Shown here: in pieces, positions 5,901-43,992 of the stretch
How the letters are laid out: each line of letters starts with the position of its first letter
Numbering within the stretch: the first letter of the stretch is position 1
From: Prunella strophiata
Lineage: Eukaryota > Chordata > Aves > Passeriformes > Prunellidae
Length of the DNA: 64,000 nt
Assembly: GCA_036583965.1 (NCBI GenBank)
Contig: JAZBQD010000019.1
Span: 15,763,585-15,827,584 of the forward strand
Direction: 5' to 3'
Notes under the pieces: model-generated
Seen by the model: the letters and a program-made list of their open reading frames with translations, nothing else
Told to the model about the DNA's origin: nothing
Databases searched by the model: none
Position numbers and translations under genes: made by a program

Positions 5901-8900
5901 TTGTGTCATGGTGTTCCACTGCACCTTCTGTTTTTATTTCTTTCTTCTGCTCTTCACTTTCCTCTACCTTCAGGACAATCCCTTCATCTTCAAGGGAGTT
6001 TGCTTTGGTCAAAGGAGGAACTGGAAGATACATACCCACAAGTAAAAATACTGTGCCAGAAAAAGTACAGGTCACTACAGACATTCTCTCTGTTTCTCCT
6101 ATTCTAAAACACTCTGCTTCCCAAAATCTAAGTCCTAGGAGAGAGAAGAGAGTATCACAATTTGAGAGCTCTTTACTAAGACACTTGTCCTTCCTGGCAC
6201 CCCTTGCTAGCTATCACAGTTTCAGTAACTGTCTCAGCGCTTTTTGCTGACTGTACTGGAGTTTTTCATTTTCTCCAAACACACCTCAAAAACACCACCA
6301 CAGATTAACTATGCTAATCTCTTGTTTATTTACAACAAGTTTCTGTCTGATGTCAATTCAAGTATGTGCCCTGTGACAAAGCTCATTAGAAGGAGGAAAA
6401 CCAAAAACAGACAAACACCCTGTTCTGTACTTTCCTTCTAATGTATTTACATTAGAAGGAAAAAGGTAGCCATCCTTGAAAATACCATTGAAATTCTGGG
6501 CACACAAGAAATCTATCAGCAGCAGATACAAGCTGTATTTTTAGGAGACTATGACAAACTAGCTGTTTCCACAGAAATCAAGTCATCTATTCTTTTAAAT
6601 CCACAGAGCTGGTGTGACCACAGGGAACGTGTGTCCTGAGCACAGCCCCAGCCCTACCCACATTAATGTTAAACATATTAATTGCAGGTCACTCTATCAT
6701 TCACTTTGCTGCTCAGAGCATCTGTAAGAAATGTTTGTTTCACTGCTTCCCTTAGCATGGCTCTTCAGTTCTTTGATCCAGTTTAGAAATTAAGTTCCTT
6801 GACTCAAATATTAAATCTTCATCCATTTTGTGCTAGACATCTTTGATAAAGTAACTAGAAGCAAGCAGCATTAAATCAAGATTTAAGAATGAAAACTGCT
6901 TTTTATTTTTTTTACACAAGTTACTGTCATCCCCCATGTTCCACTGCTGAAGGTGATTGTCCAATATAATTAATGAGTATCATTTTTCCAACCACTTAAA
7001 ACCAGTATTATGTCATTAACCAACCATGTATGAGAAATACATGCTCACAAAATAGTAGCTCAGATCTCTAAACTTTCTGTACCTGCTAACTGTGATGCAT
7101 AAGCCCATAGGAAATGGCAACGTTTCATGCAGGCCTGGCACACCATTTCATGGAAGTCTCCACTTTCAGGGGGAACTGCACCAAGATGCTGTCAGAAAGA
7201 AGTAAGCACACAGTACTGAAGCATCTATACTGATCACATACTGAACTCGAAAAGAATTCAGTACCAAAGCTGCCCATAAACTGATGAGAATTATTTGGGC
7301 ACTTAAAAGCACTTAGTGGCTTTCTTCTGAAAAAGCATTCCTGCAAAGCTCATAGTATGCAGCACAACACTCCTCATTCATACACTTAATACAAAAGAAG
7401 TTTATCTACAAGAACCCATAACTGAAGCCAATCATATTTTTTTTTTTACTCTTTGATCCTGCAACTTCAAGCATAGAATTTCACTTGTGCCCTTCAAGGC
7501 ACAAGAGGCTGAATCCTTAATGCCTACTCATTAAGTAGGGCACCCACTACAGTGCTTGGCTGCTTTCAAAAGACCTCCCCAAAGTTTGAAATAAAGAATG
7601 AACAGCACAGTCTGTTCCTTGCTACTTGAAGGAAGGAATTAAAGAGTTTAAAAGGCATTCTTTTGAAAGAAGAACTATTCAGGTAGTTCCATAATATGAT
7701 AATGATGTGCCTCAGTAAGAATCTTTTTCTCACCAACTATACTGATTAAGAGTTTTCTAATTAAAGAAACAGTTATAAAGTTATTACTTCATTCTGCAGT
7801 AGTAACCTTCAAAAAGCTAGGACTCTTCCTCAGTATTTTTTAACTGCAGTGGACAGCAGTGCAAGATTAGACTTTCAATGCTCCTTTGCATAAGCTGAAA
7901 ACAAATACCTTGGAACTCCTGTAATAATCTCTTGAGAACTACAGCAAACTTCCCAAGTAAGAACTACCATACAAATCTAACCAACACCAACTCCATCCTG
8001 TGCAAATGGCAGTTCTGCTGTTTGTAGTTTCCTTACCCTTCCATGGAACCAGTCTTCACAAACTATGCATTGGATCATCTCATCTGGAATCTAGATGAAC
8101 AATCATATTATGAGCATTAACAGCAACCTCCAGAATCTCTCACCAGTCTCAAACTGCAGTATCATGCAAATCCTGCTCAGTGAATTGCATTTCCCTCTTC
8201 ACCCCTCACAGGGTGCTGCCATTAATAAGTAGTCAGTGATTTGTTAGTCAATTTGCTTCCCTCAGGTTCAACAGCACACGTCACCTCTCATACAACTGAG
8301 GCTGTGGAAATCCCATTTATTACTACAAAACCAGTCTTCCCAGCAGGGCAAGACTTTCTCACAGAAAGCTTATAAAGTTAATACAGTACTGGTATCCTTC
8401 TTCCTATAAGGAGAAATGCATGAACAGACAGCTCAGCAGAAGAAAGACTACTGATATTCACACTGTCATCAGGTCTGTGAAAGATGCCAGAACCCAACTA
8501 CACTGGCTCATCCTACAGGACAGTATGAAGTGCTTTGTTATGAACAACTATTAATTATTTCTTCAGAAATGTTTTCAGCTGTCTCTGAACTTGAGGGAGG
8601 GGAGCTTATACAATGCCTTATGTTTTTTGTATTTGAAAGACTTGTGCCTTCCCTGCTCTTTGAAGCACCTGATTCCTGTGACATGCAAACAAGAGCACAC
8701 ACGTGCAAACCCAGTGCTGTGTTTCAGTGTTTCACAGAGACAAGAAAGTGTTCTGGCTACCATCCAGGACTGTAGCTAGTGCTACAGGACAGACTCTGCC
8801 CACCCCAGAAGCCTTCTTAGAGCATTTCTGCAGGCACGGGGAAGCACATTCTGGTCTCTCCTAACACGTGCAATGTGTTTATTCTGCACTAGGCCACATT

Positions 8901-11020
8901 TCTCAAGGTTATGATAACCCTGTCCCCTAGGGGAACTCTGCAACTCCAGGGAACTGCAGCACCATTTTGTCCAAATGACAACTTGTCCTCCTTATCTGTC
9001 TCTAAGGCATAAACATACTTTACCACTAAAAAAATTATCAAGTAATTACTTCACACAACACATGAAAACCAATATGGAATGTAAGATTCCTTGAAGTGGG
9101 ATCTTCCTTGAAAATGAGCTCAGTGATCACCCTTTACACAATATCTACCACAAATACCATCTGTGTATGATTACTACTGGATTTTGCATTTCTTACCTCA
9201 TCTTCAGGATCAGGGTAAGGTCTTTTACATGTACAGTACAATCCGTAGAAGTTGTCATTGTATTTATTTCCTGAATTCACCTTGCCCTTTTCCTAGGAGA
9301 AAAGGGGAAAAAAAGACTCAAAAGACAACACAGTAAAAAACAAAAGACAGTAAAAACACAGTTTTTGTTCCCCCTTAATTCCTAAAACCATCATTATTTT
9401 CATCAGCCTGAATATACAAAAAGAAAGGTATTCTCCAGACATCTCTGCTTTACACTGGGCAGCAGATAGGGCACAAGAGGAATGCTAAAGTTCAAAACTA
9501 AAGAGGAAAAACAGTCTGCTCACCTTTGTAACAAAAGGTAACCTGTGGTGGCAGACAGATTAATGGACAGCTGCTGAAGCTCACTTAACCTGTACAATTG
9601 AATTTTCACTGAACTGAAGCAGAAGGAACAACCATTTCATTGACTCAAATGAGAAATGGTAACATCTTTAAATTGTCACAGGTGTCTCTGTAGGGACTAC
9701 TGCACTGTGACTTTGCTGACTAGCTCTGGATCCATTTCAATTCTCCCAGAACAAAACAGCCATACACAAAACCACTGTCTGTTTCAATGTTTGGGCTGCT
9801 GTTATCCTGGGAGCATCAGTGCAAGCAAGTCAAGCAGCAGTATGCTGCTGCTTCCCAGAAGACTGAGATTGCCAGTTAATTGAAAAGTTCAAAATGCCGA
9901 CCAAGTAGAAAAGTATAGGCAGCTTAATACAGTAAAAAACCATCCCATCAGTAGGCTCGGGTGACAAACTATTAGGGCACTAATGCCACCACAAAGAAGG
10001 AAAGAGAACTGTCCCTCTGACAGCAGCACAGCCCTAAATTTTCTTAATGTGACTGCAAAATTGCATCCCAAAAGGTTATTCTGAAACAGCTTGAAGTGAA
10101 TGAGATGTATTAATGCAGAAACACCCCAACCTGCCTCTGGAAGTGTGCTGACCATGGATGCAGAACTGCTGCACTCACGGATAACAAGGACCAAATACTC
10201 CTTCTCCTCCTATTTCCCTCTGGTCCCTCAACAGTTTTGTTCCTTGCTGTAATATTCCCACCTTCTTTAACTTCCTGGGAAGACCGGAGGAGTCGCACGA
10301 GTCAGCACTGGCTGAGGCAAGGCACCAACCTCCCAAGAGTGTTATTTTGACTCCGAATGCCTGAAACTTGTCTGAAACTTACCGGGAGTAACTTGCACTG
10401 CAGATTTTTGAACTTGCTATTCCCACAGTCACAGCGGAAATTCCTGGAAAGAAAAACGTAGCGTTTCAAGGTTTACATGAAGTGAGAACACGCTGGGTTT
10501 CGTGCTCTTATCAACTCCCAGCAATTTATCGGGAGCCACGGGAGCTGTGAGGGTCCTCCCGTCCCCCGCCCGTACCTCTTGGTGTAGAGCTCGAAGAGGC
10601 GGTGGGTGCCGTGGCACTCGTAGCTGCAGGCCAGGCAGATCCCCGCGGGCTCGGCGCCGGGCGGCGTGCAGGTGCTGCAGGCGTACAGCGCCTGCCGCTT
10701 CACGGCGCCCTGCGGGAGACACGGAGCGGCCGCGCCGTGAGGGGAGCGGGGGCGAGCGCGGCCGGGCTGCCCCGCCCCGCCCTGGCCCCGCCCCCGGCCC
10801 CGCCCCGCGGCCCAGGCCCCGCCCCCGGGCCCGCGGCCGCCGGCCCCGCCCCCACCTGTGAGTAACTGCAGCGCTCGTGGTCGCTGCCCCCCAGCACGGC
10901 CCGCGCTTCCTTCTCCAGCTCCTCGTTCTCCGCCAGCACCTCCGCCAGGGACACCACGGGTTCCTCCGCGCCGCTCCCGCCGCTTCCCGGCTCGGCGCCC
11001 TCCGGAGCCGCCGCCTCCAT
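2815..11020 (-). CDS. UBR7: UBR7, UBR-box and PHD-finger protein (11 exons)
   Basis: The spliced product is about 416 residues (human UBR7 is 425). Exons on the minus strand are 11020-10856, 10709-10576, 10443-10383, 9292-9197, 8090-8037, 7188-7083, 6020-5836, 5293-5162, 4783-4620, 3764-3703 and 2907-2815, all with AG/GT borders and matching phases. UBR7 is a candidate N-recognin-type E3 ubiquitin ligase, reported to act on histone H2B. Visible domains: a UBR-type zinc finger (residues about 44-117, Cys/His rich, with [16 protein letters not shown] and CDCGNSKF), a PHD finger (about 138-200, with [17 protein letters not shown] and [10 protein letters not shown]), an acidic variable linker (206-267), and a conserved C-terminus ending MQYYCS. 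The start [10 protein letters not shown] leads into the conserved [11 protein letters not shown]. Exon 9 carries one base too many near 4744-4745, which stops the literal frame after about 324 residues. It is head-to-head with GON7. Identity is certain; intactness is not. Confidence 0.96.
3703..3764 (-). CDS. UBR7: UBR7 exon 10
   Basis: 62 bases encoding [20 protein letters not shown] and a final Thr. The acceptor is GCCATCCAG|AATA and the donor GGAACG|GTAAGG. Confidence 0.94.
4620..4783 (-). CDS. UBR7: UBR7 exon 9, with a one-base frame break
   Basis: Begins [13 protein letters not shown], after which the literal frame meets TGA. Omitting one base at about 4744-4745 gives the expected [12 protein letters not shown] and, further on, [20 protein letters not shown]. 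The length of 164 bases is one more than the phases of exons 8 and 10 need. The acceptor TCTCCAG|AAA and donor CTGTG|GTAAAT are good. Confidence 0.93.
5162..5293 (-). CDS. UBR7: UBR7 exon 8
   Basis: 132 bases encoding [20 protein letters not shown] and then [15 protein letters not shown], a Cys-containing block conserved in the family. The acceptor is TTAATTCAG|GTA and the donor TGTTTG|GTATGT. Confidence 0.95.
5294..5835 (-). other. UBR7 intron 7
   Basis: No further exon or repeat is recognised. The other UBR7 introns longer than 300 bases (2908-3702, 3765-4619, 6021-7082, 7189-8036, 8091-9196 and 9293-10382) likewise hold only A/T-rich unique-looking sequence. A T-run lies near 7438-7446. 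Confidence 0.6.
5836..6020 (-). CDS. UBR7: UBR7 exon 7
   Basis: 185 bases encoding the Glu/Lys-rich linker from [15 protein letters not shown] to GSACPE. The family varies most here, and identity rests mainly on position, phase and acidic composition. The acceptor is ATCTTCCAG|TTCC and the donor CCTGAG|GTAAAA. Confidence 0.9.
7083..7188 (-). CDS. UBR7: UBR7 exon 6
   Basis: 106 bases encoding [20 protein letters not shown] and then [15 protein letters not shown], the end of the PHD finger. The acceptor is TTCTGACAG|CAT and the donor TTAGCAG|GTACAG, phase 1. Confidence 0.95.
8037..8090 (-). CDS. UBR7: UBR7 exon 5
   Basis: 54 bases encoding [18 protein letters not shown], the central Cys-x2-Cys and Trp-Phe-His part of the PHD finger. 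The acceptor is CATCTAG|ATT and the donor GGAAGG|GTAAGG. Confidence 0.95.
9197..9292 (-). CDS. UBR7: UBR7 exon 4
   Basis: 96 bases encoding [20 protein letters not shown] and then RPYPDPEDE, the start of the PHD finger. The acceptor is CTCCTAG|GAAA and the donor GATGAG|GTAAGA. Confidence 0.95.
10383..10443 (-). CDS. UBR7: UBR7 exon 3
   Basis: 61 bases encoding [20 protein letters not shown], the last Cys pair of the UBR finger. The acceptor is TTTCCAG|GAAT and the donor CTCCCG|GTAAGT. Confidence 0.95.
10576..10709 (-). CDS. UBR7: UBR7 exon 2
   Basis: Encodes [16 protein letters not shown] through HRLFELYTK, the core of the UBR box with its Cys ligands. The acceptor is CCCGCAG|GGC and the donor AAGAG|GTACGG, leaving phase 2. 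Intron 1, between this exon and exon 1, is only 146 bases and is packed with CCCCGCCC-type GC boxes. Confidence 0.95.
10856..11020 (-). CDS. UBR7: UBR7 exon 1
   Basis: Encodes residues 1-55, ending CSYSQ just before the donor AG|GTGGGG. The length of 165 bases leaves phase 0. The first half of the UBR zinc finger begins here at [10 protein letters not shown]. The ATG at 11020 is chosen because the conserved PVVSLAEVL motif follows in frame, although the frame stays open further upstream through the repeat array. Confidence 0.95.
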
Positions 11021-11226
11021 CGCCGGGACGCGAAGGCCGAGGAGCGCGAAGCGAGGCGGGAAACTCGGGCCCGAGGAGGCGCCAGGGGGCGCCACAGCGG
11101 ATGAGCGGAATGCGCGCGCGCCCCACGTGACCGTGGGCGGTGCGTCACCGCGGGGCGGGGCGGCCCGCGCGGCCGGCACGTGACCGGCGGGCGGGCGCAT
11201 GGCGGCGGCGGTTGGCGGAGCCGGCG
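11021..11226. promoter_or_regulatory. Bidirectional UBR7/GON7 core promoter with paired E-boxes
   Basis: About 200 bases separate the UBR7 ATG (11020, minus) from the first in-frame ATG of the GON7 array (11227, plus). Two CACGTGAC E-boxes lie at 11124-11131 and 11177-11184, 53 bases apart in the same orientation, with an NRF1-like alternating GC run (tgcgcgcgcgcc) near 11111-11122 and a CRE-like tgcgtcac at 11141-11148. No TATA box is seen. Factor assignments are motif inference. An out-of-frame ATG at 11199 would open an upstream frame overlapping GON7 if transcription starts before it. Confidence 0.7.
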
Positions 11227-12050
11227 ATGGCGGAGCCGGCGATGGCGGAGCCGGCGATGGCGGAGCCGGCGATGGCGGAGCCGGCGATGGCGGAGCCGGC
11301 GATGGCGGAGCCGGCGATGGCGGAGCCGGCGATGGCGGAGCCGGCGATGGCGGAGCCGGCGATGGCGGAGCCGGCGATGGCGGAGCCGGCGATGGCGGAG
11401 CCGGCGATGGCGGAGCCGGCGATGGCGGAGCCGGCGATGGCGGAGCCGGCGATGGCGGAGCCGGCGATGGCGGAGCCGGCGATGGCGGAGCCGGCGATGG
11501 CGGAGCCGGCGATGGCGGAGCCGGCGATGGCGGAGCCGGCGATGGCGGAGCCGGCGATGGCGGAGCCGGCGATGGCGGAGCCGGCGATGGCGGAGCCGGC
11601 GATGGCGGAGCCGGCGATGGCGGAGCCGGCGATGGCGGAGCCGGCGATGGCGGAGCCGGCGATGGCGGAGCCGGCGATGGCGGAGCCGGCGATGGCGGAG
11701 CCGGCGATGGCGGAGCCGGCGATGGCGGAGCCGGCGATGGCGGAGCCGGCGATGGCGGAGCCGGCGATGGCGGAGCCGGCGATGGCGGAGCCGGCGATGG
11801 CGGAGCCGGCGATGGCGGAGCCGGCGATGGCGGAGCCGGCGATGGCGGAGCCGGCGATGGCGGAGCCGGCGATGGCGGAGCCGGCGATGGCGGAGCCGGC
11901 GATGGCGGAGCCGGCGATGGCGGAGCCGGCGATGGCGGAGCCGGCGATGGCGGAGCCGGCGATGGCGGAGCCGGCGATGGCGGAGCCGGCGATGGCGGAG
12001 CCGGCGATGGCGGAGCCGGCGATGGCGGAGCCGGCGATGGCGGAGCCGGC
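11214..12050. repeat. Perfect 15-bp minisatellite, about 56 copies
   Basis: The unit ccggcgatggcggag repeats without any mismatch from about 11214 to 12050 (837 bases, 55.8 copies, 55 ATG triplets from 11227 to 12037). Because 15 is divisible by three and the unit has no stop codon in any of the six frames, very long spurious open frames result on both strands. In the GON7 frame each unit reads Met-Ala-Glu-Pro-Ala. Each unit has three CpG. There are no spacers, so this is not a CRISPR-like array. Zero divergence points to very recent expansion, ongoing homogenisation, or an assembly artefact. Confidence 0.98.
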
Positions 12051-12494
12051 GGCCGAGGCGGGCCCGGTCCGGGAGCTGGTGGCGGAGCTGCGGGGCCGCG
12101 ACGGGCGGACGCGGACCGTGCGGGTGCCGTACCGGCGGCGGAGGAGAGCGAGGAAGCCAAGATGGAGAGGGCATGAGGGGGCCAGAGCGAGCGGAAGAGC
12201 GGGTGCAGGAGCTGCTGGCGCCGCTGGTGCAGGAGGAGCGGGCGGCGGCGGGCGGCGCGCGGCGCGGTGAGTGGCGGGGGCGGCGCGGAGAGCGGGCTCC
12301 GCCGGGCCCGGGGCGCCGCCCGCGCCCCGCACCGTTCACCCGCGCCCGCCCGAACTCTGGCAGGTGGTGGCGGGGATGACGACGACCTCTACGACGACGA
12401 CGAGGAGGATGCAGGCGAAGACGAAAACAACGTGGACGCGGCGGCGAGCGGCGATGACCCTCCCGTGAAACGGACGAAGGTGCAGCAGCCGTGA
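11227..12494 (+). CDS. GON7: GON7, KEOPS complex subunit (two exons, frame broken)
   Basis: GON7 is a small, largely disordered subunit of the KEOPS complex, which makes N6-threonylcarbamoyladenosine at position 37 of ANN-decoding tRNAs. Exon 1 runs to the donor at 12266/12267 and exon 2 is 12364-12494 (TGA 12492-12494). Similarity to human GON7 (100 residues) is seen in three blocks: [18 protein letters not shown] after the array, [13 protein letters not shown] before the donor, and the acidic tail [14 protein letters not shown] with the basic end VKRTKVQQP. The first block is in a different frame from the second, so a net one-base excess (or two-base loss) lies between about 12130 and 12200. 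The start is uncertain because the array offers 55 in-frame ATGs. The last one (12037) gives a protein of about 120 residues, close to the family size, while the first adds about 270 residues of Met-Ala-Glu-Pro-Ala. Poly(A) signals follow at 12827 and 12835. Confidence 0.85.
12037..12266 (+). CDS. GON7: GON7 exon 1, non-repeat part
   Basis: Starts at the last array ATG ([18 protein letters not shown]). The last 60 or so bases encode [19 protein letters not shown] in the frame that joins exon 2 correctly through the phase-1 donor GCGCG|GTGAGT. Between the two blocks the middle frame reads [14 protein letters not shown], so either two one-base losses or one one-base gain would explain the break. 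Confidence 0.8.
12364..12494 (+). CDS. GON7: GON7 exon 2
   Basis: The acceptor is ACTCTGGCAG|GTGG. It encodes a Gly- and Asp/Glu-rich tail ([20 protein letters not shown], then NNVD) ending KRTKVQQP and TGA. The DAEDENNID-like motif of human GON7 is clearly matched. The intron before it is only 97 bases. Confidence 0.93.
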
Positions 12495-20557: not shown

Positions 20558-20930
20558 CTTCCTCCGGCCGAGAAGGAGGGAGCGGGAGGGCGGCGGCGGG
20601 CGGCCCGCTCCCCTCAGCCCGCGCCGCGGCGCCGGGAGGCGGCGAGTCCCGCGGGCCCGCCCCGCTGCCCGCCCGCCGCCATGGCCGCCCGCGGCACCGG
20701 CACTTCCAGGCACGGGAACGGCTGCCGGGGCGCGCGGCCGCATCCGGGGCGGGCGCCTTGGCCGGCCGCCATCTTGGCTCGGGCGCGCGCCCCTCTGTGG
20801 CCGGAGTGGCCTCGCCCAAAATGGCGGCGTCGCCCTGAGGCGGCGCTCGGCTCCTCCGCGGGGACGGACCCCAAGTGCCGCGTTCTGGCACAGAGGCGGC
20901 GTGAGCCCGCCCAGGGAAGTAACAACAAAC
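20430..20930. promoter_or_regulatory. LYSET CpG-island promoter with two YY1-like sites
   Basis: A sharply bounded GC- and CpG-rich block in A/T-rich DNA. YY1-type motifs occur in both orientations: gccgccatcttgg at 20765-20777 (minus-strand sense) and aaaatggcggc at 20818-20828 (plus-strand sense). YY1 sites of this kind typically sit just downstream of the start of housekeeping genes, so a minus start near 20780-20800 is likely, and a divergent plus-strand noncoding start is possible. No conserved protein is encoded on the plus strand. Confidence 0.7.
20558..20780 (-). other. LYSET: Predicted noncoding first exon of LYSET
   Basis: The donor GGAAG|GTAAGG at 20558/20557 is in a CpG island with a YY1-type element just upstream. 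Reading the frame required by the coding exon back through this exon meets a TGA near 20614 and no ATG after it, so the exon is probably 5' untranslated. The 5' limit is approximate. Human TMEM251 has a longer form with extra N-terminal residues; I cannot find that extension here. Confidence 0.55.
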
Positions 20931-43924: not shown

Positions 43925-43992
43925 AGAAAATCATGTTTCCAGATCTAATGGCACTTTCAGAAAATCATGTTTCCAGATCTAATGGCACTTCT
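43925..43992. repeat. 34-bp tandem duplication
   Basis: Two adjacent copies of a 34-base unit starting agaaaatcatgtttccagat; only the last base or two differ. It is a recent local duplication inside the ITPK1 intron. Confidence 0.95.

Follow-up and report, generated by a model that had tools for sequence, protein, structure and literature searches.

A 15-bp minisatellite that repeats the start-codon segment of GON7 in an assembled passerine genome

The first exon of GON7 in the window (i.e., the whole stretch of 64,000 nucleotides that was analysed) carries 55.93 head-to-tail copies of a 15-bp unit, with 100% match and zero indels over the run from 11213 to 12051, and a start codon in all of its 56 units except the opening one. 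The explanation that we favour, with moderate confidence, is a real, recent, lineage-specific and frame-neutral minisatellite expansion in passerine GON7 exon 1, next to which the assembled consensus contains indels. A perfect array of about 56 copies had been described in an earlier note on this DNA and is borne out here, the ends given there being one base off on each side. The region is laid out as follows.

10856 to 11020, minus strand: first coding exon of the diverging neighbour UBR7, frame open, exon ends by inspection.
11021 to 11198, no strand assigned: putative common UBR7/GON7 promoter; CACGTG boxes start at positions 11124 and 11177.
11199 to 11201, plus strand: upstream ATG in the GGAGD-repeat frame, with C at -3 (poor context).
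11212 to 11226, plus strand: variant opening unit in which TTG replaces ATG, as read from the sequence.
11213 to 12051, plus strand: 15-bp tandem array, unit TGGCGGAGCCGGCGA, encoding (MAEPA)n; maximal period-15 run, 839 bp.
12037 to 12266, plus strand: final array ATG and the remainder of GON7 exon 1, ending at the donor.
12130 to 12195, plus strand: apparent frame changes in GON7 exon 1, from frame-aware alignment to seven bird GON7 proteins.
12267 to 12363, plus strand: GON7 intron (GT...AG, donor GTGAGT at 12267), from inspection and protein match.
12364 to 12494, plus strand: coding part of GON7 exon 2, frame open to TGA.

The array contains 55 complete ATGGCGGAGCCGGCG units, each of which reads as the codons ATG GCG GAG CCG GCG, or Met-Ala-Glu-Pro-Ala (MAEPA). 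Its 55 ATGs, from 11227 to 12037, share a single frame. The claim that every unit carries an ATG therefore holds for 55 of the 56 units and fails for the first, which has TTG. The favourable context that had been proposed for these ATGs, a purine at -3 and G at +4, was found as G at both positions in the printed contexts of the ATGs at 11227, 11242 and 12037, and the units are identical. With a 15-bp unit in the 10-60 bp range, head-to-tail order and 55.9 copies the array is a minisatellite; its GC content is 80% and it has 168 CpGs (observed/expected 1.40). The window contains 59 copies of the heptamer ATGGCGG, with 55 of these in the array, whereas 100 shuffles average 1.83 (SD 1.26). The locus is present once in the assembly, and the 30-mer made of two units was found 54 times across the 1.05 Gb, every time within this array. 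Three features had been overlooked in the earlier note: the upstream ATG at 11199, the opening of all three forward frames across the array (the other two encode GGAGD and WRSRR repeats), and a frame break 3' of the array. The GGAGD frame, read from the ATG at 11199 and spliced, stops after 325 residues. Elsewhere in the window, away from the GON7 region, there is a perfect 34-bp tandem duplication of 1.9 copies (43925 to 43990).

The assignment of the gene to GON7 is supported by what follows the array on its 3' side, in the frame of 12173 onward and through exon 2. The helix and exon 2 match Pfam PF15387 (E 4e-9, 37 bits against a cut-off of 32.1) and the human GON7 structure 6gwj_D (E 1.8e-5), and the last 29 residues of the exon 2 product are those of the bird GON7 protein P0001. 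On its own, the N-terminal piece had no match in Pfam, but it aligns closely to bird GON7 proteins; a match to Extensin_1 was below cut-off and was taken as composition noise, and one to PBP1_TM was likewise under its cut-off. The period-15 run passes straight into exon 1, so that the array joins GON7 sequence directly, as had been claimed. According to the human study, GON7 is a subunit of the KEOPS complex that makes t6A, LAGE3 is its binding partner, its structured parts are a hairpin (Met1-Ser20) and a helix (Gly25-Pro50), and its mutation leads to disease (PMC6722078). A protein search of the genome for a second GON7 gave only this locus, as two exon pieces, and a chance match on contig C60 that was rejected (E 9, three stops). 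A DNA search from the tail of exon 1 to exon 2 gave, besides the locus, a weak match on contig C171 (76% over 95 bp), and no second copy or haplotig with a different unit count was seen in the genome. A family search with PF15387 had no match anywhere, the 14 control genomes included, and is thus uninformative on copies.

UBR7, identified by a zf-UBR domain match in its next exon on the minus strand, is the diverging neighbour of GON7, and LYSET/TMEM251 and ITPK1 lie downstream; the comparison was made with what we take to be the human gene order around GON7 and UBR7. When UBR7 exon 1 was compared with solved structures, two weak matches (chains RBL7_C2_3 and RBL4) were set aside as unrelated. 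A bacterial promoter and terminator scan, a method unsuited to bird DNA, returned nothing. Matches to the TISU element were scored against a 12-base consensus, with AAS and AAGAUGG taken from PMC2518114. About 2-3 kb from LYSET there is a 12/12 match to this consensus, CAAGATGGCGGC, at 20776 on the minus strand, and 11/12 matches lie at 20817 and 21898 on the plus strand; the frames that start from 20776 and 20817 are short (52 and 5 residues).

The origin of the unit can be read from the GON7 proteins of other birds. A protein search that scored only proteins of about 66-210 aa yielded 74 of them. None has two or more MAEPA motifs and three have one, always at the N-terminus: P0008 (Lonchura striata), P0014 (Corapipo altera) and P0065 (Manacus vitellinus, flagged low quality). 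It is for this reason that the array is regarded as an amplified start-codon segment, in agreement with the earlier note, which had read it as a multiplied GON7 initiation region. The 17 best matches (P0001-P0017), every one of them named as a passerine, have 8-16 residues ahead of the conserved core. An M-ELVAEL start is instead found in 34 of the 39 matches P0018-P0056, and the other five comprise three partial sequences that contain MELVAEL, one partial that begins with ELVAEL and one protein with a six-residue lead. We take the former group to be passerine and the latter non-passerine, and the remaining 18 of the 74 matches, most of them partial or lacking a name, are outside both comparisons. 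These sequences show that the start codon has shifted upstream, to 8-16 residues before the core, throughout the passerine lineage, and suggest that the new start was subsequently multiplied in the lineage of the window. The TTG opening unit is likely a remnant of an older two-unit state. At a substitution rate of 2-5e-9 per site per year, the lack of any error over 839 bp sets an upper limit of about 0.7-1.8 million years on the age of the run (95% level), unless exchange has homogenised it.

Other arrays of this kind were also sought. Among proteins of 132-420 aa, 3920 candidates were scored and gave three relatives, none with an array, and a query with the MAEPA open reading frame found no relative among 7987 scored candidates; an array-bearing GON7 may escape such searches, as low-complexity proteins may go unannotated or be scored down and longer proteins fall outside the range. 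Neither a GON7 array nor a start codon multiplied by a minisatellite is described among the literature matches listed, mostly non-subscription.

The reading frame is not continuous beyond the array. The MAEPA frame is GON7-like through ...TRTVRVPY, then departs, and stops outside GON7 after 351 spliced residues. Frame-aware alignment places two frame shifts between 12130 and 12195 relative to P0008 and P0015, and four relative to the other five aligned proteins. The conserved PY and ELLAPL codons are 76 nt apart, compared to 78 in six of eight relatives and 75 in two, and an in-frame TGA separates conserved blocks. As a consequence of these changes no single open frame runs from hairpin through helix to tail in the assembled sequence. 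Among 58 ATGs between 11150 and 12300, only that at 12173 is in a frame that reaches the native C-terminus, with a product of 74 residues. The array as assembled does not lengthen a working GON7, and the earlier expectation of about 270 added residues is not upheld; a start within the array would, as assembled, give a hairpin without the helix. When X is placed at two breaks, the translation has 8 identities in 26 columns with the Lonchura helix, in an alignment register that was chosen by hand; this score is matched by 17 of 10,000 shuffles. Such a resemblance across the breaks is as expected for a gene maintained until recently. Indels of the consensus in difficult sequence are the most likely cause of the breaks, given that exon 2 keeps an open frame and ends in the same 29 residues as P0001.

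The favoured expansion may be pictured as follows. The 15 bp around the passerine start, probably present as two units beforehand, would have been multiplied when this hairpin-forming DNA of very high GC content slipped or underwent unequal exchange. For six units the RNA has a folding energy of -52.9 kcal/mol (z -4.3), with nested GCCGGC hairpins, compared to z -1.8 for the reverse strand and z +0.6 for 78 bases upstream. As the unit is five codons long and has its own well-placed ATG, gain or loss of copies always leaves a start in frame with the beta-hairpin of GON7, and this frame neutrality may be what allowed the expansion to be tolerated. Should transcription begin in the short intergenic stretch between UBR7 and GON7, the array would lie within the mRNA, and ribosomes that mostly use the first good ATG would then add a disordered MAEPA tail of up to 275 residues. 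Alternatively, transcription or initiation may start inside the array, with ATGGCGG acting as a YY1- or TISU-like core. It is tempting to go further and speculate that GON7 is alive, with tens of frame-neutral copies of its start, a length that varies from bird to bird, and either an allele-specific MAEPA tail or a family of internal starts. The instability would then escape selection because each copy is a start. We regard this extension as tentative and rather unlikely.

The strongest competitor is a somewhat doubtful yet serious one, namely that the locus has only one to few real units and that an assembler, gap filler or polisher cycled or homogenised the repeat. The quality of the assembly gives a mixed answer. 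There are no Ns in 250 kb sampled, 240 kb of which are from the contig of the array, and the sampled stretches contain imperfect tandem arrays that reach 3.5 kb, so that a long-read-type assembly is likely. In the first 200 kb sampled all other arrays of at least 500 bp, poly-A aside, are imperfect (TRF matches of 87-96%), which argues that the assembly does not homogenise everything and counts against inflation. Furthermore, no copies of flanking sequence were seen within the GON7 array, and a homopolymer error would leave the array unaffected as its unit has no homopolymer longer than 2 bases. On the other hand, perfect A-runs that end in G number 169 with at least 153 bases and 265 with at least 60 bases genome-wide. 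This tail is far too heavy for the spectrum of the 250-kb sample, which lacks A or T runs with a length between 39 and 870; the mirror pattern, G followed by at least 153 A, occurs 181 times. Measured homopolymers include 871 A (locus L021, 4920 to 5790) and 1501 T (locus L039, 1502 to 3002). Locus L040 (1396 to 2408), with runs of 258, 395 and 332 A separated by an identical 14 bases, looks stitched. In locus L010 a 40-bp array (6075 to 9583) is perfect over its first 1784 bp and has variants in the rest. With homopolymers of this length and perfection, neither the perfection nor the copy number of the GON7 array is safe at face value, and together with the perfect 1784-bp stretch they make inflated repeats a live possibility. 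The same holds for the array itself, which is flawless over 839 bp despite its 168 CpGs, and for the frame breaks about 80-145 bp from it, which point to a weak local consensus. Against this, long homopolymers by nature conceal indels, so that a perfect run of this kind says less than it seems to, and of the 100 A-runs of at least 153 bases that are listed (169 in total), 28 lie on contig C116, a clustering that may reflect regional biology. The exact copy number of the GON7 array is not reliable.

It is also conceivable, though quite unlikely, that the array is regulatory DNA, in which the expansion has amplified a transcription or initiation element and transcription starts are spread through 55 YY1/TISU cores, and this would be compatible with the favoured expansion. 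The 55 tandem ATGGCGG copies are located just inside a likely bidirectional promoter, and TISU is presented as a YY1 element that bears an ATG, lies close to the start of transcription and is a strict initiator on short 5'UTRs (PMC2518114). The array units nevertheless reach only 9/12 of the consensus and fail at -3, -2 and +8, i.e., they lack AAS before the ATG and GCGGC after it, while the ATG at 11199 scores 10/12. With 9/12 the unit is not a TISU, and it may still act like one. It is very unlikely that a real array is growing in the decaying exon of a GON7 truly lost from this allele or species, as the frame changes, the in-frame TGA between conserved blocks and the lack of a second GON7 beyond the rejected genome match might suggest, for exon 2 is open with its final 29 residues intact relative to P0001, the PY-ELLAPL spacing is two bases short of that in six of eight relatives and one base longer than in the other two, and the gene serves KEOPS and t6A and causes human disease when mutated (PMC6722078).

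If the expansion is real, it shows that a coding expansion can escape selection when the initiation codon is copied in a multiple of three, and the locus offers a natural series for the choice of ribosomes among identical tandem start sites. If it is an artefact, this assembly inflates simple sequence within genes and the annotations of its GC-rich first exons become suspect.

The GON7 array would be a case of a known kind, GC-rich minisatellite expansion, and several systems resemble it in part. Coding VNTRs such as MUC1 are in-frame, length-variable tandem repeats of an exon; we know of none of this type whose repeat holds an initiation codon, unlike the GON7 unit, and to our knowledge the CSTB dodecamer unit has no start codon either. 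The CSTB expansion (PMC9655992) is similar in that a small gene has gained copies of a short unit at its 5' end, and differs in being a promoter repeat and a human disease allele. The likeness to TISU is an ATGGCGG core on the start codon near the presumed transcription start; the array units lack the upstream AA and the C at +8, and TISU is a single element (PMC2518114). GC-rich avian genes that are missing from assemblies also have structured tandem repeats that are hard to sequence. Their repeats are mainly non-coding, yet G/C-rich motifs reach exons of the leptin gene, and a multiplied start codon is not described in the accessible part of that paper (PMC6792250).

Among described phenomena avian sequence stuttering comes closest; it is a local and length-variable expansion of gene segments that are sometimes derived from exons (PMC12954441). 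The GON7 array has in common with it that a short, once-unique, GC-rich gene segment has expanded locally in tandem in a bird, and that some stuttering starts from exons. Local origin is seen here as well, as the unit corresponds to the N-terminal codons of the relatives and the two-unit 30-mer exists nowhere else in the genome. In chicken introns stuttering forms imperfect blocks that are less regular and tens to hundreds of bases long, and the authors state that no case crossing into exons was observed, whereas the GON7 array is perfect, lies in exon 1 and covers the start codon (PMC12954441). Moreover, stuttering is typical of dot chromosomes, with 190 of 236 exon-stuttering introns located there and 36 on macrochromosomes (PMC12954441), whereas the GON7 array is on a 59-Mb contig (59,158,785 bases). 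The array thus departs from avian sequence stuttering in two features, and if real it would extend the phenomenon from the introns of dot chromosomes to an exon on a macrochromosome.
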